This document shows, one piece after another, positions 7,401-37,519 of a stretch of 37,610 nucleotides of DNA. The DNA is from Bacteroidota bacterium (lineage in GTDB: Bacteria > Bacteroidota > Bacteroidia > Bacteroidales > UBA12481). The stretch lies in assembly GCA_018669475.1 (NCBI GenBank), contig JABHCC010000056.1, positions 1-37,610 on the forward strand, written 5' to 3'. Both the position numbers and the translations under genes were made by a program. Numbering within the stretch: the stretch's first letter is position 1; every line of letters begins with the position of its first letter. The notes under the pieces are model-generated. The model searched no databases. It saw nothing but the letters and a program-made list of their open reading frames with translations, and had not been told where the DNA came from.

Positions 7401-8416
7401 GCCTCTTTATCTCTGTGATAAAAGCCATCTTTCAATACTGCATATTCATCCTTTTTCAGAATCTTAATCTTCAGGACGGCAGATATAAAACCTATGCCAT
7501 ATGCGGAGATTTGAATCGCAGATGTGAGCATACTCAGGAGTCCAAGTTTGAAACAGCCATGTGGCAAAGAAGCTGTGAGAAAGATCAGGGAAGCATACAG
7601 AAAAACAGGCGCCAGTACCCATACTGAGAAGAGTATTGATAATGTTATCATGAGGATCAGACCTGCAAGGAGGGCGGATGGTACCCAAAAGATCCATTTT
7701 GCTGTATGCGGATAAACTTTTGAAATTATGTACCGGGTTTTTCCAAACTTGAATACCTGTCGAAAAAAGCTTACCAGATTAGAACGTCTTTTATGATAGA
7801 CGCCGCAATCAGGGAATAGAGCTGTTTTGAATCCCTTTCTAATCAGTTCAATAGTAAAAACCATATCCTCTCCCGGGTGCATGGCTGTGACCGGAAACCC
7901 ACCTAATTGTTCGAAGATTCTTCTGTGGATACCCATATTGAAACTTCTCGGATAGAAGCGGTCAATCTGCTTTTTACCGCCTCGTATTCCTCCGGTGGTT
8001 AGAAAGGAGGTCATCGCAAATGAAATAGCTCTTTGAAGTAGATTAAAATCCGGGGCAGCCAGATCGGGGCCACCAAAAGCGTCAATGGGATTGGCTTTCA
8101 GAGCAGTGGCGAGAGACTCAAGCCAATCAGCAGGTGCCATACAGTCACTGTCAATGAAAAGAAAGTATTCTCCTCTTGCTGCCTTCATTCCATTATTTCG
8201 TGCAATTGCCGGACCAGTATTCTCTTGTTCAAGGTATATTAGGGGGAATTTATCTTTGTAAGTTGAAATAAGGTGAGCTGATGAAAATTGAGATCCATCT
8301 TCGATCACGACCAACTCAAAATCCCTGAAACTTTGAGCAGATAAAGACCCCAGAAGCTCCAGCAACTCATCAGGGCGGTTATAAACCGGGACGATTATGG
8401 AGAATTTTGGCTTCAT
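7397..8416 (-). CDS. Family 2 glycosyltransferase, membrane-anchored
   Basis: This 339-residue protein has an N-terminal GT-A domain: SIIVPVYNRPDELLELL at the start, VIEDGS near residue 37, GPAIARNNGMKAARG and the metal-binding DSDCMAP near residue 92. A GED motif (HPGEDMVF) lies further on. The C-terminal 90 residues contain two or three hydrophobic membrane segments. It is expected to add a sugar to a lipid-linked or surface glycan at the inner membrane. It is the last gene of a tight minus-strand operon, its start overlapping the methyltransferase stop by 4 bases. The acceptor and sugar cannot be told from sequence. Confidence 0.9.
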   Translation of the reverse strand: MKPKFSIIVPVYNRPDELLELLGSLSAQSFRDFELVVIEDGSQFSSAHLISTYKDKFPLIYLEQENTGPAIARNNGMKAARGEYFLFIDSDCMAPADWLESLATALKANPIDAFGGPDLAAPDFNLLQRAISFAMTSFLTTGGIRGGKKQIDRFYPRSFNMGIHRRIFEQLGGFPVTAMHPGEDMVFTIELIRKGFKTALFPDCGVYHKRRSNLVSFFRQVFKFGKTRYIISKVYPHTAKWIFWVPSALLAGLILMITLSILFSVWVLAPVFLYASLIFLTASLPHGCFKLGLLSMLTSAIQISAYGIGFISAVLKIKILKKDEYAVLKDGFYHRDKEA

Positions 8417-10768: not shown

Positions 10769-10776
10769 TACCTTTG
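10769..10776 (+). promoter_or_regulatory. Promoter -7 element for the SRP RNA
   Basis: TACCTTTG matches TAnnTTTG exactly and ends 5 bases before the first paired base of the SRP RNA. TTAG at 10746-10749, 19 bases upstream, is a three-of-four match to the TTTG -33 box. Confidence 0.7.
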
Positions 10777-10781
10777 CCGCA

Positions 10782-10888
10782 GGGTAAGTCTTATACGACC
10801 AGCTCCCGCTGAACTCCCCCAGGACCGGAAGGTAGCAAGGGTAGGCGGTTGTAGCGGTGCGATATAAGTAGCTTACCCTTCTTTTTTT
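10782..10888 (+). ncRNA. ffs: Signal recognition particle RNA (small bacterial type)
   Basis: The 5' end GGGTAAG pairs with CTTACCC at 10872-10878, and TCTTATA with TATAAG further in, giving the long single hairpin of the bacterial 4.5S-type RNA. The apical domain holds CAGGACCGGAAGGTAGCAAG near 10830, with the GGAA tetraloop and the asymmetric internal loop bound by Ffh. A run of seven T at 10882-10888 follows directly and would end transcription. The RNA works with Ffh in co-translational targeting of membrane proteins. Mature length is about 97-100 bases; the feature end includes the T run. Confidence 0.93.
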
Positions 10889-12641: not shown

Positions 12642-14087
12642 TTATTTCCTCCAGAATACAGGAGAAAGGAGTACAATTACAGTAAACAGCTCCAGCCTGC
12701 CCATTAACATCAGGAAACCTAAAAACCACTTTCCAAAAGCTGGCAGGTGGGCGAAATTATCCAGGGGGCCAACCGAGCCGATTCCCGGGCCAATATTTCC
12801 CAGACAGGCAGCAACTGCACCCATTGAAGAAGTCATATCCATGCCCAGCATGGCCATAACCACAACTCCGACAATAAAAATCAACATATACAAGACTACA
12901 AAATTCAGAATATTTGAAGTAATACTATCAGGTACGGCTCTATGGTTATATCTGATCGGGATAACGGCATTAGGATGTAAAATACGTTTCGATTCCAGAT
13001 ATGAATTCTTCATGGTAAGCCAAACCCTGATAATTTTTATTCCACCACCCGTTGATCCGGCTGATCCACCAAAGAACATCAGAATAAATATAAGAGTCAC
13101 TAATAAGGGAGCCCAGGCAAGGTAATCAGCAGTAACATATCCTGTTGTAGTCATAATAGAAACTACCTGAAAGATCGACTCTCTGAAATTTTCCTCAAAT
13201 AAACCTCCCCGGCTAAGTGATAGTACCAGGGTGAAAATCACAGTGAACCCAAGAAGAAACCCAAGGTACACCCTGAATTCTTCATTGTTCCATATCTTTT
13301 TTGTTCGTCCTTTAAGAGCAAAGTATGCCATAGTGAAGTTAGTACCTGCAACCAGCATAAAAAAGCTTATCACATAATGAATATATGGACTCGACCATGC
13401 TGCAATACTGGCTTGTTTGGTTGAATATCCACCGGTGGCCATTGTTGTTAAACTGTGATTGAAAGCATCGAAGAATGACATACCCCCAAACAAGAGGAGA
13501 ATCATTTCAGTTAAGGTGAATGCCACGTAAATAGCCCATAATCTCTTTGCTGTTTCTTTCACCTTCGGATGAAGTTTATCCGGGGCTGGTCCGGGCACTT
13601 CTGCTACAAACAATTGTAAGCCACCAATTCCAAGCAATGGTAATATTGCCAGAGACAAAACAATTATCCCCATGCCGCCTATCCACTGGGTCATACTGCG
13701 CCAAAACAGCACACTGGCAGGAAGGGCTTCTATATCATTCAAAATCGATGCTCCGGTAGTTGTAAAACCTGAAATTGTTTCAAAAAAGGCATCTGTAAAT
13801 GAGGGAATTGATCCGCTGAGAAGAAATGGTAGTGTTCCAAAAAAACTAAAAATAATCCAACTTAAAGACACTACCAGAAAGCCTTCCTTCTTACCAAGAT
13901 TCTTACTTTTCTCTTTATTTATCAGAATCACAAGTAATGCTGTTGCCATGGTGATCCCTGATGACAAAAGCATCTTAAGTGCAACTCCATCCTGATATAT
14001 CAATGACAGAATCACGGAGAGACTCATGAAAGCTCCTTCAAGTAACAGTAAGCGTCCTAATACTTTAATTACAAAGCGAATATTCAT
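12642..14087 (-). CDS. trkH: Trk/Ktr potassium uptake channel subunit TrkH
   Basis: The protein spans the inner membrane many times and contains the repeated channel loops of the TrkH/KtrB family: TISGFTTTGASIL in the first repeat, TTMATGGYSTKQ in the second, IMTTTGYVTADY in the third and ACLGNIGPGIGSVGP in the fourth, each with the selectivity-filter glycine. Starting at ATG 14087 gives 481 residues, an AAAGG sequence a few bases upstream, and an 8-base gap to trkA. A start at 14114 would add 9 residues but overlap trkA, so I prefer 14087. It works with TrkA, which lies directly upstream, to import K+. Confidence 0.92.
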   Translation of the reverse strand: MNIRFVIKVLGRLLLLEGAFMSLSVILSLIYQDGVALKMLLSSGITMATALLVILINKEKSKNLGKKEGFLVVSLSWIIFSFFGTLPFLLSGSIPSFTDAFFETISGFTTTGASILNDIEALPASVLFWRSMTQWIGGMGIIVLSLAILPLLGIGGLQLFVAEVPGPAPDKLHPKVKETAKRLWAIYVAFTLTEMILLLFGGMSFFDAFNHSLTTMATGGYSTKQASIAAWSSPYIHYVISFFMLVAGTNFTMAYFALKGRTKKIWNNEEFRVYLGFLLGFTVIFTLVLSLSRGGLFEENFRESIFQVVSIMTTTGYVTADYLAWAPLLVTLIFILMFFGGSAGSTGGGIKIIRVWLTMKNSYLESKRILHPNAVIPIRYNHRAVPDSITSNILNFVVLYMLIFIVGVVVMAMLGMDMTSSMGAVAACLGNIGPGIGSVGPLDNFAHLPAFGKWFLGFLMLMGRLELFTVIVLLSPVFWRK

Positions 14088-30219: not shown

Positions 30220-30614
30220 GGGGCTGCCCTGGTTTTGACAGCAAGGTGAACTGGTAAGTAAGCATGCCGAGTACTGAAGCAACGCTCGTAAAACCTTGTT
30301 TCACACTTTTAATTGGCGAAGATAACTACGCTATCGCTGCGTAACCGAATCAAGTAGGTTACACTTTATCCCGGTACTAGGTATTGGGACGATACATCAC
30401 GCATGAGGTAATGTCCTGATCCATCCTGATTCCGTGGTGCAAACAATCTGGGACTAGTTTTCTTCAGGCTTTGGGAGGAAGGCGAAACTAAAGAAGCTAA
30501 GGTTCAGATCGCTTGTCGACTGGCAGTCTGGATTCGAAAACCAATAGTCAACTAAGCATGTAGAAAGCTTATGGGTTCCTTGTTTGGACGCGGGTTCGAC
30601 TCCCGCCAGCTCCA
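30220..30614 (+). ncRNA. ssrA: Transfer-messenger RNA (tmRNA)
   Basis: The 5' end GGGGCTGCCCTGGTTTTGAC pairs with the 3' end CAGCTCC plus discriminator A, giving the alanine-tRNA-like acceptor stem; the T arm GGGTTCGACTCCC is intact. CCA is not encoded. The tag reading frame begins GGC at 30315 and ends TAA at 30342-30344, encoding GEDNYAIAA. The RNA rescues stalled ribosomes together with SmpB. The length of 395 bases is normal. Its last bases lie inside the 27-bp attachment repeat, so the 3' end has been rebuilt by the integrated element downstream. Confidence 0.95.
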
Positions 30615-30619
30615 CTTTT
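30593..30619 (+). repeat. Left attachment site core, part of ssrA
   Basis: This 27-bp sequence starts GGTTCGACTCCCGCCAGC and runs 5 bases beyond the tmRNA end. It matches 37493-37519 at every position. It covers the T-arm and acceptor stem of tmRNA, a common tyrosine-recombinase target. Confidence 0.95.
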
Positions 30620-30626
30620 GTAAAAC

Positions 30627-30657
30627 GCAACCTCCTGCATATCTAGAGGTTGCATTT
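30627..30657 (+). terminator. Possible replacement terminator for ssrA
   Basis: GCAACCTC at 30627-30634 and GAGGTTGC at 30646-30653 form a perfect 8-bp stem with an 11-base loop, 12 bases after the mature tmRNA end. Only ATTT follows, so termination may be weak. It lies inside the element and would replace the displaced host terminator at 37544. Confidence 0.5.
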
Positions 30658-30673
30658 CGCAATATTACGTCTC

Positions 30674-30691
30674 GACCAACCGCTGGCCAAC
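30674..30691 (+). repeat. Left-end paired integrase arm-type sites (putative)
   Basis: Two CCAAC units at 30676-30680 and 30687-30691 stand 11 bases apart, one helical turn. The second is preceded by TGG to give TGGCCAAC. The same arrangement is present at the right end, in the same orientation. They lie about 57 bases inside the left core. Confidence 0.5.
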
Positions 30692-30790
30692 CATGTCGTT
30701 TATTGCCTTAATAGTTTCATGTTGTGGGCCGTTCGTTTTTTTTGCAATTTTATAGGTGCCTATGAATATTTCTACCTTGAACCAAACGAC

Positions 30791-31744
30791 ATGAAAAATC
30801 TGTTATCATTACTTGGACTGTTATTGATTGTTAATTTTTGTTTTAGTCAAAATGAATACGCAGTTACTGCAAAAAAACCTGCTATTGAACAAGCTGGCTT
30901 AAGCCCAGAGAATGAATTTATTCAAAAAAACTTCCCCTATATCCCTTTAGCAGAATGGCCTCCTGGAATGAGATTCATGCTGGATCAAGCAGGCATGTCA
31001 TCACCACTTCAGTTGTTCGATAGCAGAAGATCAAAAGTTGGATCTCAAGTTGATAAGAAGGAATATGAAAACACAATTTTTACACTTCTTAGGATTGTAG
31101 AAAAGGAGATAAAAGTAGCGACAGGTCGAAAAACTTTTCCTCTTTTCATTTTCGGACATGAGGATCTTGAATTTGTTTATATATACCCAGGAAGCCTTCA
31201 AGACTTGAAAGCTGGAATCTATCCAAATTTCATTCTTAATCTGATTTTTCTTGGTGATATTGACAAAGCAAGAGAGATTCTAATAGGTAAGAAACTATTC
31301 CTCAAAAGTCGAATTGTTAATGAAGAAGGATCAACAAGGGTTGGTACGTTAAAAAATGTTCCTAAGTATATCCCTGTCACGATAACCAATGTTGGGCTTG
31401 GGAAATCTGTTTCACCTGTTAAAATTGTGTTTGAGAATGCGGAGGGGAATGAGTTTTTTGTGGAAATACTGCTTTCTGGAATCAATTCCCGTGACAGTTA
31501 TGGCATTTCGGATTTTGATCGTTATTTTTTTCTTCAAGATCCACGAAGTAGATACCCACATATATCTGACGATATTTGGGAGAAGATCCAAATTGGAAAA
31601 ATTCAAATTGGCATGACTGAAGAAATGGTTAAACTTTCTTGGGGTCCACCTGAGAAGATAAATAGGTCAAGTGGTGGAGATCAATGGGTTTACAAAAATC
31701 AGTACCTCTATTTCGAAAACGGCAAAATGACTTCATTCAATTGA
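30791..31744 (+). CDS. Exported cargo protein with SmpA/BamE-like C-terminus
   Basis: Starting at the ATG at 30791 gives 317 residues with a signal peptide (MKNLLSLLGLLLIVNFCFSQ); there is no proper lipobox, so it is probably a secreted or periplasmic protein. The C-terminal 50 residues contain IQIGMTEEMVKLSWGPPEKI, then QWVYKNQYLYFENGKMTSF, a pattern seen in SmpA/OmlA (BamE)-like domains. The central 200 residues are unknown to me. An in-frame start at 30650 would add 47 residues with no export signal at the front, so I reject it. It is the only plus-strand gene in the element and lies downstream of ssrA. Its role as cargo is unknown. Confidence 0.75.
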   Translation: MKNLLSLLGLLLIVNFCFSQNEYAVTAKKPAIEQAGLSPENEFIQKNFPYIPLAEWPPGMRFMLDQAGMSSPLQLFDSRRSKVGSQVDKKEYENTIFTLLRIVEKEIKVATGRKTFPLFIFGHEDLEFVYIYPGSLQDLKAGIYPNFILNLIFLGDIDKAREILIGKKLFLKSRIVNEEGSTRVGTLKNVPKYIPVTITNVGLGKSVSPVKIVFENAEGNEFFVEILLSGINSRDSYGISDFDRYFFLQDPRSRYPHISDDIWEKIQIGKIQIGMTEEMVKLSWGPPEKINRSSGGDQWVYKNQYLYFENGKMTSFN

Positions 31745-31815
31745 ACGCATAATATTTATCTGTATAATAGTCTGCTCCGTCTGCCCTTATGGAATCTTCC
31801 CAGGGTCCTGAGATT

Positions 31816-32919
31816 TTAAGATTTGGCAACGTACTGGATAATTTCATCTCCTTCATAAAACTCACAAATCTTATTTCTCATACCCACTTTGTCTTTGAAA
31901 TGCCTCATGATTTCGATAGACTTATCCAAAAAATCGTCACCGGATTCTATTTTCCGATGGAATATTCTGACTGAATCACAATTCTCGTGCTCAAATATTT
32001 CATTCAGCAACGTTCTATCCGATATTCCACACGAATGCCCAATAATAAAAACCTCATACAGATCCGCATTAATAAACCCATTCAATATTTTGTAAGCTGA
32101 GTTACGAAAGTAATGTGCTGATTTAATGTTTCTGAACAATTCGCTGTTCCTTTCTGATTCCAAAGCTTGATAATTTTTATCGTGCTCATCCCCGAAACCA
32201 AAAATGATTGATTTAGGATTCCTCACTTCTCCATGAATGTAGTTCAATCTGACATTTTGATAATCGGATTTGCCAAATTGTAATACTGTGCTCTCCAAGA
32301 CCGTAGTATAATTAAAGTTCAAAATTTGAACCGCATTGATACCACCAGATTGTTGAGATTTGGGATGTGGGTTAAAAAATGGCTCAGTATAGTGATGGCT
32401 AAAGGACAGATAACTATCAGGATGAAATCCTGAGTCAATCTTAGCTATATACTGAATCAGTCTGTCTTTCAGCTCGGAAAACCGTGCATTATGAAGTGAT
32501 ATTTGCTTATCCCGATTTGACAGACTTTTCAATTGTGATATTTTCACTAATTGGTCGTAATACATCACTTCCAAATCAATCCAAGAATACTCCGCATCTA
32601 ATTGCAGTATTTTGGTAAGTAAATCAAATTGACTGGTTATCATGTCGTACTCGTTCAAAACATCAACGAGACCATTATAATCGCAAATTTCGCGAAGTTT
32701 GGCTTCCGTATATTCCTGATTCCAACTCTCAGGTATTGATATTTTGATCAGGTTATCTTGATATTTATATCCTCTATTATCAAGATCTACAGTATCGGAA
32801 TCAGAACTAAAGCATTCCCTAATAGAATTAAGAAAATAATCGAATAGAAAATGTTTGTAGCCGGTTCGGAGTCCAAGAGACAAATCAAATCCGTTTCCTA
32901 TAATGATAAGTCTATTCAT
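31816..32919 (-). CDS. AbiH-family phage abortive infection protein
   Basis: This 367-residue protein begins MNRLIIIGNGFDLSLGL, with the GNGFDL motif (8-13) that marks the AbiH family. Further family features are SWIDLE (112-117), NFNYT (201-205), IHG (228-230), FGFGDEHD (240-247) and FIIGHS (291-296). The GNGFD, NYT, HG and GHS series also resembles the layout of SIR2-like defence proteins, though that relation is only an inference here. AbiH from Lactococcus stops phage growth by an unresolved mechanism. It is the last gene of the minus-strand run, 77 bases after the small-terminase-like gene, and is the clearest cargo of the element. Confidence 0.88.
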   Translation of the reverse strand: MNRLIIIGNGFDLSLGLRTGYKHFLFDYFLNSIRECFSSDSDTVDLDNRGYKYQDNLIKISIPESWNQEYTEAKLREICDYNGLVDVLNEYDMITSQFDLLTKILQLDAEYSWIDLEVMYYDQLVKISQLKSLSNRDKQISLHNARFSELKDRLIQYIAKIDSGFHPDSYLSFSHHYTEPFFNPHPKSQQSGGINAVQILNFNYTTVLESTVLQFGKSDYQNVRLNYIHGEVRNPKSIIFGFGDEHDKNYQALESERNSELFRNIKSAHYFRNSAYKILNGFINADLYEVFIIGHSCGISDRTLLNEIFEHENCDSVRIFHRKIESGDDFLDKSIEIMRHFKDKVGMRNKICEFYEGDEIIQYVAKS

Positions 32920-32996
32920 ATGATTTGATTAAATGATCCTCAATTTACGACAACTTATGTAAACATCTAAGTCATATTGCCAATCATTTTTTCCTT

Positions 32997-33452
32997 TTAT
33001 GGGTCAATACCGTGCCGTTTACAAAGCTCATTATATTGATCTTCATAAAAGGTACTTTGTTCCATTTCAGACCACATATCAATAGTAGATTGCCGTCTAA
33101 AGATATCTCTTGGATCAGTTTCACCCACTTCACGAGACAAAATTTTCTCAATTGTCCAGCAAGCTGCCTTAAGTCGTGTAGGTGACTTCTGATCATCATT
33201 CAAAATTTCAATAATGGCCTGAATAGCCGAGCTACCTATAGACCGTAAACTATCCTCAACAAAAACCTGAGTTTCCTCAATTAGCCGATTGTAGTATGTT
33301 CTGAATGTTATCTTTTTGGACCAAGTGTATAAAGTGCTCCTATTAACTTTCAACTCCTTAGATACATCAGTATAACTTTTACCAGCTACAAGGAGGCAAA
33401 CGGCGCGTTCTTGTATTGGTGTTAAACCTGTGTTTGAATCTTGTTTATCCAT
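32997..33452 (-). CDS. Small HTH protein, phage small-terminase/phBC6A51-like
   Basis: Starting at ATG 33452 gives 151 residues. Residues about 8-45 form a helix-turn-helix: LTPIQERAVCLLVAGKSYTDVSKELKVNRSTLYTW. This is followed by helices (RLIEETQVFVEDSLRSIGSSAIQAIIEIL and LKAACWTIEKIL) like those of phage small terminase subunits and phBC6A51-type proteins. Starts at 33494 and 33557 are in frame; the latter would overlap the Rep-like gene by 55 bases. I cannot tell whether it binds packaging sites, as in a phage satellite, or is a regulator. No large terminase is present. Confidence 0.7.
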   Translation of the reverse strand: MDKQDSNTGLTPIQERAVCLLVAGKSYTDVSKELKVNRSTLYTWSKKITFRTYYNRLIEETQVFVEDSLRSIGSSAIQAIIEILNDDQKSPTRLKAACWTIEKILSREVGETDPRDIFRRQSTIDMWSEMEQSTFYEDQYNELCKRHGIDP

Positions 33453-33502
33453 AATTGTATCATTTTGTCGAATTCTGTTGCGATTCGTATGCATGTAGCT
33501 TA

Positions 33503-34765
33503 CTAAAGCTTTATCAAAGCCCATTTTATTGGCGAAATTAAACTCTCTGTAGGCCAAAGCTTATAGCCCTTTTTCTCGATATTCTGAAAACTTTTTTTCG
33601 CATTATTAATTGGATTTCTTTTGCGATTGGAGATAGAGCAACGAATTTTGTGAGCAATCGCTTTGAACCAAACATTTAGTTTTTGGTCTCGATGGATATT
33701 TTTCCACTTCTCTGTGAGTAGTTTCTCTAATCTGGAATAATATATTTCAGGCTCAAAGAGGAAGTACCATAGGATACCTTGTGTAGTCAAATATCCTGAT
33801 GCGGGTTTTTGGTTAATCATTTCAAGTCCGGTTACTGAACAGATAGTACTGGAATAACTATTTATTGTAGGGTTATTTTGTTCAACTTGGCTTCCGTGAT
33901 GGCTACTAACTTTATCGGTTATTTTGTTGCATTTCTTCTCAATTAGGTCAGATATCCTCTGCCTTGACTCGTTACATTTTGATAATTCGGCAAATCGTTT
34001 TTGTAGCCTATGGCGTTTACTTCTTTCCATCTCAAGCCAAAATTGAGGAAACCTACCCGCAAACATCAGTTCCTGGTCTTTAATCCCGGTCAAGTCGAAT
34101 AAGTTGTTTTCCTGGTTTGCAATCAAAACACCTGATAAAATATCAAACAACATCTTACTTAGTTTTTCCCAAACTGTGAGATTGCATAAATCTGATAGAG
34201 ATAATCCTTTGATTCCAAACCTCTCTAAAAACTTCACTCTTTTCACTTTGATTTCAAACCTCAGTAAGTTCTCATTCAGGTCAAATTGCAAACCCTTATT
34301 ATAGACTTTGATATCAAATTGCTGGCATTGACAAACCGCACCAAAGCCTTTACCTACAACTTGCAGTTGTTGAAATGCATTTGTTCGATATAAAATCATG
34401 GATTTAATAATTTTATTCGGATCGCACCATGTGGTAAGATTAATCCCAACCTCTATGAAATTTATAATAGCTTCGTTTGGATCAAATGAAAAAACCCTGG
34501 TAATTTCATCTATTACCGATTGAACATTGAGTAAGCTAAAATCTCGATGGTTCGTGCCTCCCTCATGGCATTTGTGCAGACTCCCTTTCAAACTGACTTT
34601 TTCTCCTTTCACCTTTATTTGCATATCATTCCAAAATGCAATTTGAGATCTGTTCAGTATTTCACCGGTTGTTGCCACGTTTGACAAAGGGAATGTCAAT
34701 GCGTGGTTATTTAGGATTTCATCAACCTCAACAGGGAGGTTGTTAATCTTAATGAAATCTATCAT
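33503..34765 (-). CDS. Putative replication initiation (Rep-like) protein
   Basis: This 420-residue protein has SLHKCHEGGTNHRDF (residues 62-76), FIEVGINL (103-110), FDIKVYNKG (150-158) and LLRFEIKVKR (167-176), an order that resembles phage and plasmid replication proteins of the Rep_trans/gene II type found in small Bacteroidota elements. The KVYNKG segment holds a possible catalytic Tyr. A C-terminal part with CSVTGLEM (309-316) and Lys/Arg-rich helices may bind DNA. The start ATG lies 1 base after the excisionase-like gene stop. If correct, the element may replicate once excised. Family assignment is from memory and needs a profile search. Confidence 0.5.
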   Translation of the reverse strand: MIDFIKINNLPVEVDEILNNHALTFPLSNVATTGEILNRSQIAFWNDMQIKVKGEKVSLKGSLHKCHEGGTNHRDFSLLNVQSVIDEITRVFSFDPNEAIINFIEVGINLTTWCDPNKIIKSMILYRTNAFQQLQVVGKGFGAVCQCQQFDIKVYNKGLQFDLNENLLRFEIKVKRVKFLERFGIKGLSLSDLCNLTVWEKLSKMLFDILSGVLIANQENNLFDLTGIKDQELMFAGRFPQFWLEMERSKRHRLQKRFAELSKCNESRQRISDLIEKKCNKITDKVSSHHGSQVEQNNPTINSYSSTICSVTGLEMINQKPASGYLTTQGILWYFLFEPEIYYSRLEKLLTEKWKNIHRDQKLNVWFKAIAHKIRCSISNRKRNPINNAKKSFQNIEKKGYKLWPTESLISPIKWALIKL

Positions 34766-34766
34766 C

Positions 34767-35042
34767 TTAGGTAAGTGGTTTTATTGCCGCTTCTACCTCT
34801 TGACGCTTATAATAGACCCTATTACCAATACCGTAGGCCCTGAGCTTGCCCTTTTTGGTCCAATTATGAACACTTGATAGGTCAATTTTCAAAAGGTCTC
34901 TGACCTCATTCCGGGTTAAGTACTCAGTTGGTTCTTTTGGTTGGTATTCACTTTTAATGATACTTAGTTCAGCCTTTATGCCTGATACAATCGATTCCTT
35001 AAGTTGGTCAGGGGTAATGGCAATAAATTGAAGTTGACGCAT
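34767..35042 (-). CDS. Excisionase-like MerR/HTH_17 DNA-binding protein
   Basis: This 91-residue protein has an N-terminal helical part and then EYLTRNEVRDLLKIDLSSVHNWTKKGKLRAYGIGNRVYYKRQEVEAAI (residues 40-88), which is the winged helix-turn-helix of the HTH_17/excisionase family. Such proteins set the direction of integrase (recombination directionality factor) or activate replication genes. It is followed after 1 base by the Rep-like gene. The pair Xis-Rep in this order is common in small Bacteroidota integrative elements. Confidence 0.8.
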   Translation of the reverse strand: MRQLQFIAITPDQLKESIVSGIKAELSIIKSEYQPKEPTEYLTRNEVRDLLKIDLSSVHNWTKKGKLRAYGIGNRVYYKRQEVEAAIKPLT

Positions 35043-35102
35043 AATTCAATGGTATTAAATGATTATGCATCGAAATAAATGTGGGGAAACGAGAGGGAAC
35101 TA

Positions 35103-35990
35103 CTACTTTTCCCCCAATTTATTGAATTGGGTCTTAAATTTGCTCGTATCGAGACCCAGGGTTATCAATTCTCCATGTACTCTACTAATGTTTTTCTCCT
35201 TGGTAGGAATATTTTTATCGCTATCATCCGAAGAATACAGTGCCGATAACATCCTTCGGGTGGTATCGTGATTGAGATCCACAAAAGATCTCAAAACATT
35301 GGCGAACTTCGCATAATTGTCTCTGAGGCCAAATTTCTCAACAAGGAAATCCAATACACCAAGTTCGTGCAAAACAACCATTGTCTCTGTTTGATTCTTC
35401 TCATACAGATCAATATTCTCATTGCTCTCTGGTATTAAATTATCGGACAATAGATCATGAGCATATTGCATATTTTTTAAAGTAAAATCAGTGAGGTGAG
35501 TTTTATCAAACATTTGATCATAGTCGTATTCTACATACACAAATGATTCTAAACAGTTCGGAAGATTAATAATCTTTCCATGTCTAACTGTGCATTCATT
35601 TGAAATAATGTCCATGATCTCATTTGGAGAAAGCATCCCAGGGACATTAATAGCTTCTGCCATTTTCTCAATGTCAATAAGAATTCCTCCATCCTTCCTA
35701 CTTGGGATCTCCCAATTGTGCTCGATATAAATATCAAGACTTTCCTTTTGTATTCTTGGAATGAAAAACAACTCAGTATAAAAATCAACGTGGTCTATGG
35801 CTTGCTTAACCTTGTTATGCTTGAATTCTCCGGTGATCTGTTCAAAGTAGTTGAAAATTTCAATTTCTGAATACTCACCGTTTGGATAACTATACTCTTT
35901 ACCATCGAATGATTCACTCGGTTTGCTTGAAATTTCTTGAAGAAATTCTGGTAAAGTCAATTTCAGATATTTTTGATTCATGGTGGTCAA
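35103..35990 (-). CDS. Hypothetical protein of Bacteroidota mobile elements
   Basis: This 295-residue protein has no named domain that I recognise. The N-terminal 190 residues are acidic with many aromatic residues. The C-terminal 100 residues (MVVLHELGVLDFLVEKFGL, ANVLRSFVDLNHDTTRRMLSALYSS, then SRVHGELITLGL) resemble a helical region that recurs in unknown proteins close to integrases in Bacteroidota. It starts 2 bases after the integrase stop and so is probably in one operon with it. No function is proposed. Confidence 0.7.
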   Translation of the reverse strand: MTTMNQKYLKLTLPEFLQEISSKPSESFDGKEYSYPNGEYSEIEIFNYFEQITGEFKHNKVKQAIDHVDFYTELFFIPRIQKESLDIYIEHNWEIPSRKDGGILIDIEKMAEAINVPGMLSPNEIMDIISNECTVRHGKIINLPNCLESFVYVEYDYDQMFDKTHLTDFTLKNMQYAHDLLSDNLIPESNENIDLYEKNQTETMVVLHELGVLDFLVEKFGLRDNYAKFANVLRSFVDLNHDTTRRMLSALYSSDDSDKNIPTKEKNISRVHGELITLGLDTSKFKTQFNKLGEK

Positions 35991-35992
35991 AT

Positions 35993-37309
35993 CTATTTGG
36001 TGCCTGTATTTCTAACTATATGTAATCTTGTTCCCTCTTTAGGAATTGCAGATTGCGTGCTCCAATATTCTGCGAGCTGAATTGCATAATCATCAGCAGA
36101 CTTACCAATGTATTCTAAGAATTGCCTTTCAGTTGAATGGCCTGTAATACCAATGAGTAAACTGGTTGGGATTTCACCATAAAAATTGGTTGCAAATGAC
36201 CTTCTGCAAATGTGGCTTGATACCAATTCATACTTTGGAAAACGCCTATACTGTTTTCGAGTTTTTCTGGACACAGGATCTGTTACCATTTTTCCACCAA
36301 TAACCAATGCGGTAATTTTTGCCTCTTTACAGACATCTTTGATGTGCAAATTGAAATTCACGTCAGAAATCCTCTTCGGAAAGGCTCCTTCTCTTTTTTG
36401 CAAGATAGCCTGTACCTTAGGGTGAATTGGGATTGCTATAGTCTTTCCTGTTTTCTTTTGAGTTAACTCAATAAGGTGTATGCCGCTTCTGCGGACTACG
36501 TGGCTGCTGTTTAAGGTCAGTAAATCTGAAACTCTTTGTCCAATATAACAACCAATTATCAGCCAGTCTCGCGCGTTTCCCAGGGCTTGACGATCATATA
36601 CGGTCTGTTCTATCTGTTCAATCTCATCAATAGAAAGATAGACTTTAGTGGCTCTTTCAGTGAATCCCTTTATTTGATTTAATTGCGAGTGGGTAGCCAT
36701 CCCATTGTTCCTTGCATCAAGACAGACAGTTTTTAGGAACTTGATGTACCTTCCTGTTGTATTCCCATTCAGCAAGTCAATCTCCATTAAGTATTTGACA
36801 AATTCATCTCTAAAGGATAATCCTACATCTTCAATAAAAACTTTGTGTTTCCTGTAATTCTCAAACTCTAACACCTTTACTTTAAGTGTCTCGTATTTTT
36901 GAATCGTTGATTTGCTGACACCTCTACGTCCATTCCTAAGCTCTTTGTATGGTAGACGACTAATAAAGAGATCAATATATACAAATAGCCGACTATTATT
37001 ACGCTGGGATTTCCTGTTCAGAATACTACTGATTTGTTCCTCCAACCACTGACCTGTTATCATTTCCCCTATGCTATTCGATACATTTATTCTCTTTTCC
37101 ACTTCATTAGCCAACCTCTTAAGCTCAACAGACAAGTTTTTTAGATCTTCATCCTTGGGTTTTGGCAAAGATGTTATGCCACTCCAATCCTTCGGATTAA
37201 TAGAGTAACCTGACTTCCTCCTAAGATTCGTGCTTCTATCGATTGATAGTCTTAAGTAGATATTTGCTGGATTTCGATTGCTGCGAATTTGATACTTAAT
37301 TGTGGCCAT
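35993..37309 (-). CDS. int: Tyrosine recombinase / site-specific integrase
   Basis: Starting at ATG 37309 (MATIKYQIRS) gives 438 residues. The N-terminal arm-binding domain of Bacteroidota type (YLRLSIDRSTNLRRKSGYSI) is followed by a core-binding SAM-like domain (about residues 105-205) and a catalytic domain with Arg259 in GQRVSDL, Lys about 286-289 in KKTGKT, His366 and Arg369 in HICRRSF, His391 in GHS and the nucleophile Tyr400 in FLEYIG. All catalytic residues are present. It sits next to the right attachment site and reads inward, as expected for the integrase of this element. A start at 37351 lies inside the arm-type repeats and is rejected. Confidence 0.95.
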   Translation of the reverse strand: MATIKYQIRSNRNPANIYLRLSIDRSTNLRRKSGYSINPKDWSGITSLPKPKDEDLKNLSVELKRLANEVEKRINVSNSIGEMITGQWLEEQISSILNRKSQRNNSRLFVYIDLFISRLPYKELRNGRRGVSKSTIQKYETLKVKVLEFENYRKHKVFIEDVGLSFRDEFVKYLMEIDLLNGNTTGRYIKFLKTVCLDARNNGMATHSQLNQIKGFTERATKVYLSIDEIEQIEQTVYDRQALGNARDWLIIGCYIGQRVSDLLTLNSSHVVRRSGIHLIELTQKKTGKTIAIPIHPKVQAILQKREGAFPKRISDVNFNLHIKDVCKEAKITALVIGGKMVTDPVSRKTRKQYRRFPKYELVSSHICRRSFATNFYGEIPTSLLIGITGHSTERQFLEYIGKSADDYAIQLAEYWSTQSAIPKEGTRLHIVRNTGTK

Positions 37310-37340
37310 AAATGTGCAGTGTATATGTACAAGGATTATC

Positions 37341-37360
37341 TTGGCCAACATTTGGCCAAC
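37341..37360 (+). repeat. Right-end paired integrase arm-type sites (putative)
   Basis: Two TTGGCCAAC units (the second TTTGGCCAAC) put CCAAC at 37345-37349 and 37356-37360, again 11 bases apart and in the same orientation as the left pair. They lie 32 bases before the int start and 133 bases from the right core, and could also allow the integrase to repress its own gene. Confidence 0.5.
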
Positions 37361-37393
37361 GAATGTTAATTCATATTCAACAACAATAAATAT

Positions 37394-37439
37394 AAATCAA
37401 TGTATTGACTTTACAAAAACGTCACAAGAACATTGATTT
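37394..37439. repeat. Perfect 10-bp inverted repeat in the int leader
   Basis: AAATCAATGT at 37394-37403 and ACATTGATTT at 37430-37439 are exact inverted copies; an inner TGAC (37406-37409) and GTCA (37421-37424) extend the symmetry. The site is between the arm-type repeats and the right core. It could bind a dimeric regulator, excisionase or host factor. Confidence 0.4.
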
Positions 37440-37492
37440 TATGCATAACAATCGCACTCTAAATCTGATCTCTCGTAATTAGAGATTGAATA

Positions 37493-37519
37493 GGTTCGAC
37501 TCCCGCCAGCTCCACTTTT
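37493..37519 (+). repeat. Right attachment site core (displaced ssrA 3' end)
   Basis: An exact copy of the 27-bp left core, starting GGTTCGACTCCCGCCAGC, with no tmRNA body before it. It is what remains of the original 3' end of ssrA. Confidence 0.95.

Follow-up and report, generated by a model that had tools for sequence, protein, structure and literature searches.

A 6.9-kb unit in ssrA as a probable phage satellite and predicted member of a Bacteroidota-wide family

A compact unit in the tmRNA gene (ssrA) of a Bacteroidota bacterium raised the question of what kind of mobile element joins an integrase and a replication protein to a defence gene, and by what route it would spread. The stretch of DNA that we analysed (the window, 37,610 nucleotides) is an entire contig (G000:C200) and ends 91 bp to the right of the unit.

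Borders and gene content of the ssrA element

The original prediction placed identical 27-bp cores at both ends of the unit. These att copies proved exactly alike and lie 6,900 bp apart, enclosing seven open genes; random sequence of 37.6 kb would contain about 4e-8 such exact pairs on average. The features are:

30220..30615, + strand: ssrA (tmRNA), the integration target, with one att copy in its 3′ end (ARAGORN; Rfam RF00023, 166 bits)
30593..30619, + strand: att repeat on the ssrA side, 27 bp, exact direct repeat
30791..31744, + strand: exported protein, 317 aa, with a signal-peptide-like start by a crude heuristic (phrog_11546, 5.3e-4)
31816..32919, − strand: AbiH, 367 aa, defence cargo (PF14253, 3.1e-27; PADLOC AbiH, 1.4e-7)
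32997..33452, − strand: p3, small-terminase-like HTH protein, 151 aa (PHROG small-terminase families, 3.4e-8 and 7.6e-8; Pfam HTH_Tnp_1_2, 9.1e-9)
33503..34765, − strand: Rep, 420 aa, predicted rolling-circle replication initiator fold (AlphaFold2 mean pLDDT 88.9; Foldseek; VIA-align)
34767..35042, − strand: excisionase-like HTH_17 protein (Xis), 91 aa (PF12728, 7.7e-12; PHROG 66 excisionase/regulator, 3e-8)
35103..35981, − strand: p6, unknown 292-aa protein between int and xis (Pfam, PHROG, NCBIfam and PADLOC searches; relatives compared)
35993..37309, − strand: tyrosine integrase, 438 aa (PHROG integrase, 2e-18; PF13102, 8.5e-7; alignment; motifs)
37493..37519, + strand: att repeat on the distal side, 27 bp, exact direct repeat

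Read from the distal end, the gene set is integrase, p6, excisionase-like protein, Rep, p3, AbiH and exported protein; the first six are on the − strand and only the far exported-protein gene is on the + strand. G+C is 36.5% in the element against 40.4% in the flank, and the tmRNA ends at 30617 by Rfam versus 30615 by ARAGORN. That the element integrated site-specifically at the 3′ end of the tmRNA gene is well supported. As had been proposed, the integrase is intact and inward-facing: its ORF is open (with a possible alternative upstream start at 37351), it is transcribed into the element, and it keeps the R, H-x-x-R and Y motifs. The HTH_17 match bore out the excisionase-like neighbour. The slot between int and xis also holds an unidentified protein in the relatives; an RteC-like identity for it was rejected (0 of 11 members matched RteC, and they have no Pfam family in common). 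By its position, p6 is a candidate regulator.

The predicted AbiH gene scored 96.7 bits in Pfam, above the cut-off of 30.9, and is well supported as cargo of the element; it had no match in the phage collection. The predicted exported protein had a BamE match in Pfam (0.15) that fell below the cut-off. In agreement with the proposed lack of conjugation and virion genes, searches of Pfam, PHROG, NCBIfam and PADLOC with the seven proteins, read up to E 1, listed no relaxase, coupling-protein or capsid family. Two PHROG matches were read as noise, one of p3 to a 'terminase large subunit' family (3746, E 0.035) that covers the HTH only and one of Rep to a tail tape-measure family (E 0.33). The whole element gave a single 76-bp match to plasmids.

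Mobility had been set against two patterns, fixed synteny of these genes in all relatives and the lack of any empty ssrA. Neither was seen in a survey of seven regions from six relatives. In two of these (G233, G680) the stretch read at ssrA held no match to five element profiles, and in two others (G682, G683) an integrase ORF adjoins ssrA. One region of G375 (L220) extends only 365 bp beyond ssrA; at the end of another (L221) lies a 39-bp fragment of ssrA, possibly the mark of an occupied site. ARAGORN found no tmRNA in the G136 region (L224).

Rep and related elements across Bacteroidota

None of Pfam, PHROG, NCBIfam and PADLOC gave a match to Rep at E 0.01 or better, and a sequence search of the PDB gave nothing meaningful. 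In Foldseek, all six chains that matched the Rep model with E below 1e-3 are rolling-circle initiators (three entries), and VIA-align placed it against 4cwe with Z 12.3 (rmsd 3.7 over 225 residues), the best unrelated entry reaching Z 7.0. A predicted rolling-circle-type initiator fold is therefore well supported by structure comparison, which upholds the Rep-like assignment although no family matched. Tyr155, invariant in 30 of 30 aligned Reps, is a candidate catalytic tyrosine from the alignment. RepDE of S. aureus and the Geobacillus Rep are like Rep residues 1–285 in fold, at about 11% identity; unlike them, Rep has a further helical C-terminal part and its element is integrated.

This fold also bears on the main rival reading, an integrative and mobilizable element in which Rep doubles as relaxase, a conjugative element moves the unit and the HTH protein is a regulator. 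The MOBT relaxases of Tn916 and ICEBs1 reportedly belong to the Rep_trans superfamily and act as both relaxase and replication initiator. The Rep fold is that of Rep_trans-type initiators, and PF02486 Rep_trans gave a marginal match (E 0.028) to one Rep relative out of 14. That the seven proteins matched no relaxase or coupling family argues the other way.

Related Reps were found at 74 loci across Bacteroidota, the window included. These were kept from 78 after removal of three duplicates (L063, L059, L087) and of L053, which had no Rep match; no further Rep duplicates occur among them. Single-protein scans of genome contigs and viral contigs with Rep gave none, whereas smaller Rep alignments worked, and Rep had no match in plasmids. 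The 3′ end of a tRNA or tmRNA is duplicated around Rep and Int at 27 of the 74 loci, and in 23 of these the repeats enclose less than 9 kb (4,960–8,610 bp apart, median 6.05 kb). As a control, random 70-bp windows of the 23 loci were searched for repeats that enclose Rep and Int within 9 kb. Repeats of 13 bp or more were found in 12 of 857 such windows, versus 23 of the 49 loci with a tRNA or tmRNA; at 15 bp or more the counts were 3/857 and 18/49. At 62 of the 74 loci, Xis is found upstream of Rep at a distance of no more than 1 kb. On these sequence comparisons, the ssrA element is a predicted member of a Bacteroidota-wide family. The att repeats, together with the 22 relatives below 9 kb that have the same boundary type, support its description as a complete small mobile unit.

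The occurrence of these 22 relatives at various tRNA genes, with a similar size and a shared core, also argues against a decayed prophage remnant that has retained int, xis, rep and terS. Such gene kinds do occur in phages, but all genes here are open and tightly packed, and we regard a remnant as very improbable.

Some relatives are simpler. One (L076) is circular (4,601 bp, its ends overlapping by 53 bp) and carries int, xis and rep; no tRNA-derived att site and no small-terminase match were found in it. Another (L038) has a 3,740-bp period and is a repeated molecule, and two (L058, L066) have no ORF of at least 45 aa between Rep and the tRNA. The circular and repeated forms of L076 and L038 speak for the satellite reading favoured below. 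L076, L058 and L066 would suit an autonomous integrative rolling-circle plasmid without a specific helper, spread passively by transformation or generalized transduction; the recurrence of unrelated small-terminase-like families after Rep makes this quite unlikely.

The host genome contains a second such element, at tRNA-Met, whose Rep is of the Phage_CRI/G2P type (PF05144, 9.4e-22). The C-terminal domain of its exported protein is common to that of the ssrA element (44% over 52 aa, 4e-10); the middle part matched only itself in the host genome, and the p6-position proteins of the two elements did not match each other. A strong integrase match on contig C109 was rejected as a third element, with no xis, rep or TerS match around it. 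The G2P-type Rep could point to a satellite of filamentous phage, with single strands made by Rep and packaged by a filamentous helper. TerS, however, belongs to packaging in tailed phages, and the seven proteins include no Zot-type ATPase or coat family (though a satellite could lack them), so we give this reading very little credence.

Across the relatives, ORFs after Rep had a signal-peptide-like start in 23 of 76 cases, compared with 54 of 320 flanking ORFs; by this crude heuristic, an excess of exported proteins is only suggestive. The cargo scan took in 40 of 56 ORFs, chosen by setting aside doubtful ORFs and those for small HTH or TerS-like proteins, and a further five from L171 and L184.

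Small-terminase-like genes and dependence on a helper

The proposal that p3 is small-terminase-like is supported by its PHROG matches, the better of which is to a terminase small subunit. A profile match to PDB 2ao9 (1.2e-4) is consistent with this, as is a model of moderate confidence (pLDDT 69), with Z 9.1 to 2ao9 and 6.5 to the Sf6 TerS domain; LuxR-type HTHs score against the model like the Sf6 domain, below 2ao9, and the Pfam family of the HTH is named after transposases. If translated from a TTG at 33557, p3 would be 35 aa longer and its gene would overlap rep. Among 50,697 phage records p3 matched 11, all Streptococcus satellite phages, and 53 of the 54 records found with one Streptococcus p3 relative are also Streptococcus satellite phages.

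A TerS-like gene lies within 1.5 kb after Rep at 21 of the 74 loci by a loose profile count (11 of family tsA and ten of tsB, the family of p3). A strict count gives 15, namely the 11 tsA, three tsB (the window, L035 and L036) and L092, which has a third family (phrog_1482, 7.2e-19); the three families are unrelated. Five of the ten tsB calls (L037, L044, L056, L085, L089) match the xis profile too, and L080 and L084 reach only 2e-5. Neither profile matched within 1.5 kb at 53 loci, which would fit a mobilizable element, although these include L092 with its other TerS and some contigs end early.

At 28 of 32 IMG/VR loci a large terminase comes after the tsA relative, either overlapping it or no more than 0.4 kb away, a figure that overstates the independent cases because near-identical contigs occur among the viral loci. 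Profiles called the two ORFs together in 26 and the large terminase alone in two (L140, L144); no large terminase was found in L125, L127, L137 and L138. Of the 24 tsA places, all but G037:C28 were covered, 21 by 20 regions and two by L038 and L040. In phages, one tsA query gave a single record and another none; phage MW202710.1 has a tsA relative followed by a large terminase. For tsB, the link to a large terminase (TerL) is one weak match (E 3e-3) of the L035 homologue to an annotated TerS adjoining TerL. A tsB profile search of 295 class genomes found only ten other matches, all weak (3e-5 to 9e-4), and the tsB alignment confirmed no relative among viral contigs. The tsB kind of p3 is thus weaker evidence for a satellite than the TerL-linked tsA.

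Because TerS-like genes follow Rep, tsA is syntenic with TerL in viral contigs and p3 matched only satellites in the phage collection, the proposed satellite or helper-dependent nature of the element gains support. The same observations (small-terminase families in the post-Rep slot at 15 to 21 of 74 loci, a TerL link in phages for one such family, and satellite matches for p3 in the phage collection) make a mobilizable element unlikely. We conclude that the 6.9-kb unit is probably a phage satellite, inserted in ssrA by its own tyrosine integrase and belonging to the Bacteroidota-wide family; helper dependence and packaging through p3 are what we infer. On infection or induction of a helper phage, Int and Xis would excise a circle, which Rep would nick to yield head-to-tail concatemers. 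As a small terminase, p3 would bring the large terminase of the helper to the satellite DNA, and helper capsids would take it up by headful packaging. Once injected, the satellite DNA would recircularise and integrate, and AbiH, possibly also the exported protein, would protect the host against competing phages. The tested profile found no large terminase, and so no sign of a resident helper, in the host genome, although such an empty answer proves little.

The relatives would extend this to a minimal satellite class across Bacteroidota, a generalisation to which we give an even chance. In such a class the rolling-circle product would be the headful substrate, at least three unrelated TerS would be swapped in one slot, tRNA, tmRNA and even a CRISPR repeat would serve as att, and a cargo slot would hold defence and exported proteins.

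Comparison with known systems

To our knowledge, most phage satellites described so far are from Bacillota and Gammaproteobacteria, and no title among the literature matches listed concerned satellites of Bacteroidota. Should these elements prove to be satellites, this major phylum, at home in soil, sea and gut, would harbour many uncatalogued satellites able to carry defence genes, and the TerS genes would be clues to how each element selects its helper. A satellite that combined rolling-circle replication with a TerS of its own would be very economically built. The original prediction knew of no described element with this exact content; the gene set is indeed unusual, whereas elements of this kind are widespread.

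NBU elements of Bacteroides are mobilizable, compact and tRNA-integrated, with an integrase and a mobilization protein. The ssrA element is likewise compact, integrated at a tRNA/tmRNA gene and equipped with its own integrase; unlike in NBUs, no mobilization family was found. Streptococcus satellite phages (Javan) carry their p3 relatives in the far part, with the integrase at the other end; three such records are 9–15 kb long, a repressor is annotated in Javan293 and a primase in Javan343, and the hosts are Bacillota.

PICIs are usually about 10–15 kb, and those of Gram-positive bacteria have a divergently transcribed repressor beside int. The ssrA element is smaller, lacks such a repressor next to int and has a host in Bacteroidota; it does have a specific att site, flanking repeats and its own integrase, as PICIs do. 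As far as the available part of PMC6092414 describes them, PICIs/SaPIs are also alike in having int at one end, xis, replication genes and far-end accessory genes, and no large terminase or virion genes; some PICIs have an own terS, of which the p3 gene is a candidate counterpart. Their replication module is a primase homologue plus initiator (same part of PMC6092414), replaced here by a rolling-circle-type Rep, with no primase family in the seven proteins. Closer in size are the PICMIs of Vibrionaceae, at about 6 kb (PICMI115, 6,110 bp), which, in the part of PMC10803314 available, have a similar excision and replication core and no capsid remodelling, protect their hosts from other phages and are packaged as concatemers in full-size particles. 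PICMI115 lies beside fis and has a putative primase and, in that part, no identified terS homologue (PMC10803314), whereas the element described here has a rolling-circle-type Rep, a TerS-like gene and an ssrA site, within a family at tRNA and tmRNA genes.

The repeat-bounded element at ssrA

The original prediction placed identical 27-bp cores at the tmRNA gene (ssrA), and we confirmed an exact repeat with copies 6,900 bp apart (exact 27-mer pairs expected by chance, computed: about 4e-8). The repeat consists of the last 23 bases of ssrA plus the next four, and the locus is arranged as follows.

30220–30615, + strand: tmRNA gene (ssrA), the integration target
30593–30619 and 37493–37519: the two copies of the 27-bp repeat
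Between the repeats, in order: an exported protein (+ strand); then, all on the − strand, AbiH, p3 (a small-terminase-like HTH protein), Rep (initiator-like), an excisionase-like HTH protein, p6 (292 aa) and a tyrosine integrase

All seven genes between the repeats are open, and we consider it unlikely that the unit is a prophage remnant. Its G+C content is 36.5%, compared with 40.4% in the flank (1-kb flank windows 40.3%, s.d. 1.6). Because the window is the complete 37,610-bp contig (genome 5.56 Mb, 215 contigs), the right flank extends for only 91 bp. Elsewhere in the window, positions 10775–10882 (+ strand) encode a Bacteroidales small SRP RNA (RF04183, 108 bits).

In agreement with the predicted gene set, the integrase, excisionase-like, small-terminase-like and AbiH proteins all found family matches in Pfam or PHROG. 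AbiH matched its Pfam family at 3.1e-27, far over the cut-off, the excisionase-like protein matched HTH_17 and PHROG excisionases, and the integrase had PHROG integrase matches at 2e-18. For p3, two PHROG families of small terminases scored 3.4e-8 and 7.6e-8, while in Pfam it hit PF13022, an HTH family named for transposases, at 9.1e-9. In four libraries, Rep had no match at E 0.01 or better and p6 none below 0.08. The exported protein begins with a signal-peptide-like stretch, and the resemblance of its C-terminal domain to BamE falls short of the threshold (0.15).

The left flank was matched in 9 of 12 genomes of the family, source genome included. No int, xis, rep or TerS (small terminase) match was found within 15 kb downstream of ssrA in one relative (G233) or within 2.4 kb in another (G680). 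Two others (G682 and G683) have an integrase ORF directly after ssrA, and the site may be occupied in G375, where a 39-bp ssrA fragment lies at a contig end. Occupancy of the site is thus variable among relatives, which falls short of an empty allele within the species.

Rep relatives, RNA-gene repeats and circles

The Rep model, built on 30 aligned sequences, had a mean pLDDT of 88.9. Six PDB chains from three entries, all rolling-circle initiators, had Foldseek E-values below 1e-3, and VIA-align against RepDE gave Z 12.3 (225 residues, rmsd 3.7), compared with 7.0 for the best unrelated entry. Twelve residues, including Tyr155, were invariant across all 30 Reps. A satellite of a filamentous phage is an unlikely reading of the element. 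The best rival to a rolling-circle phage satellite is a mobilizable element with Rep acting as relaxase, since the Rep fold alone does not separate relaxase from initiator.

Among 393 genomes of the host's order, 20 encode a Rep relative (source genome counted). On named genome contigs we found 56 loci, 55 of them Bacteroidota by record title and the other a 4.6-kb contig of a 'Candidatus Dependentiae' MAG. The final set comprised 74 loci (window added; three duplicates and one locus without a Rep match removed). In 62 of them, Xis precedes Rep at a distance of no more than 1 kb. A tRNA/tmRNA 3′ end was duplicated around Rep and Int in 27 of the 74, and in 23 of these the copies were <9 kb apart (4,960–8,610 bp, median 6,054). 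These 23 repeats were 13–27 bp long and involved ten kinds of RNA gene, tmRNA being the target in two (window and L111, Wenyingzhuangia). As a control, 857 windows of 70 bp were drawn at random from the sequence downstream of Rep in these loci: 12 had such a repeat of at least 13 bp and 3 of at least 15 bp, compared with 23 and 18, respectively, of the 49 loci having any tRNA/tmRNA. Rep loci lacking the repeat include early-ending contigs and a group, mostly Flavobacterium, in which the genes are ordered xis-rep-int.

Two int-xis elements in other Bacteroidota have a tmRNA target, L111 with a related Rep and L176 (G027:C67) with a tsA-type TerS. A Rep relative is also encoded on a 28-kb fecal 'Bacteriophage sp.' scaffold (L030, MT835707.1), together with tRNA-Asn and multiple matches to integrase and xis.

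Circular or multimeric forms occur elsewhere in the Rep family. One is L076, a circle of 4,548 bp that carries int, xis and rep; in L038, the sequence recurs every 3,740 bp. L076 belongs to a 'Candidatus Dependentiae' MAG and is perhaps a misbinned Bacteroidota circle. A passive integrative rolling-circle plasmid would explain the minimal family members. A further element with int, xis, rep and a TerS-like gene lies in a CRISPR-like array:

L036:7696–13782 (in G016:C21; judged from length and mirrored coordinates to be the contig of L059, JAOZVK010000058.1, Bacteroidales MAG)

The ∼66-bp-period repeats end at 7708 and restart at 13817 in unchanged orientation, and a 14-bp core of the CRISPR-like repeat's 3′ end is duplicated at 7696–7709 and 13769–13782. 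From this arrangement, the element seems to have used a CRISPR repeat as attB.

Small-terminase-like genes after Rep

Two unrelated small-protein families, tsA and tsB, were called by profile within 1.5 kb after Rep at 11 and 10 of the 74 loci, respectively. Five of the ten tsB calls are also hit by the xis profile and a further two reach no more than 2e-5, which leaves the window (p3), L035 and L036 as the strict tsB set. A third kind follows Rep in L092 (phrog_1482, 7.2e-19), where neither int nor xis was matched by profile. The strict count over the three kinds is 15/74. Neither TerS profile is present at 53 of the 74 loci, a point for the mobilizable-element rival.

The satellite reading draws on tsA. 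Three of five scanned members resembled DUF5681 at 6e-4 or better (two over the Pfam cut-off), and all PHROG families matched are without a named function. In IMG/VR, tsA relatives occur in 32 loci, and a large terminase (TerL) comes directly after them, overlapping or within 0.4 kb, in 28 (26 with both ORFs profile-called; several contigs near-identical). In phage MW202710.1, a tsA relative overlaps the annotated TerL gene. Within the order, tsA is present in 19 of 198 genomes, and the 20 regions analysed comprise three TerS–TerL pairs, 13 with int, xis and tsA without a TerL match, and four with neither pattern. The 13 come from 13 genomes, 11 have a tRNA/tmRNA repeat, and for replication they carry a G2P-type Rep, a D5-type helicase, a Lin1244-type protein or, in some, genes without a Pfam match. 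Therefore, 13/198 genomes hold a small element, bounded by an RNA gene, in which TerS lies beside replication genes without TerL.

The terminase link of p3's own family is weaker than that of tsA. Against 50,697 phage records, p3 had 11 matches (E between 8e-4 and 4e-3), every one in a Streptococcus satellite phage, and a search with one of these Streptococcus proteins retrieved 54 records, comprising 53 Streptococcus satellite phages and one unannotated fecal scaffold. Within this collection, the family therefore appears satellite-specific. The L035 homologue (40% identity to p3) matched PHROG TerS at 3.1e-11 and, weakly (E 3e-3), the annotated TerS adjoining TerL in phage THSA-485A. The p3 profile matched the phage protein 2ao9 in the PDB at 1.2e-4, also the best fold match, to a model of pLDDT 69 against which plain LuxR-type HTHs and the Sf6 TerS domain score alike. 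A class-wide profile search of 295 genomes gave only ten further matches, all weak.

A second element, cargo and proposed packaging

The source genome contains another element:

L171:5750–13212 (in G000:C27), at tRNA-Met: 7,448-bp element, 15-bp repeat
L171 genes: int, a 292-aa protein, xis, a 155-aa protein, G2P-type Rep, tsA, an exported protein, a pentapeptide-repeat protein (called from an ORF and alignment scan) and a small lipoprotein-like protein

Thus, a single genome harbours a pair of elements that share a layout but differ in their types of Rep and TerS. Their exported proteins share a C-terminal domain (44% over 52 aa). With the TerL profile tested, no large terminase was found in this genome, so a helper phage would come from outside, use a different type of terminase or lie in sequence that the assembly lacks.

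AbiH fits the cargo slot of the element. PADLOC named few defence families among 45 cargo proteins (AbiH in the window, PD-Lambda-2 A and B with one protein each, and one HTH_VI), so defence may be only part of the slot's role. The PD-Lambda-2 proteins are probably those of L092. At L092:10632–11331, between TerS (phrog_1482) and tRNA-Asp, alignment scans suggest two ORFs resembling a PD-Lambda-2-type toxin–antitoxin pair.

We infer every step after integration in a satellite cycle. Int and Xis would excise the element, Rep would nick it to generate concatemers, and p3 would recruit the helper's large terminase to these. Helper capsids would then fill with element DNA, which after delivery would recircularise and integrate in ssrA. 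Among the matches listed from open-licence literature, no title concerned phage satellites of Bacteroidota. In Vibrionaceae, the 6,110-bp satellite PICMI115 is described as packaged into full-size particles as an eight-copy concatemer, with a DNA pattern that its authors consider consistent with plasmid-like rolling-circle replication (PMC10803314). Concatemer packaging would make similar economic sense for a 6.9-kb element.
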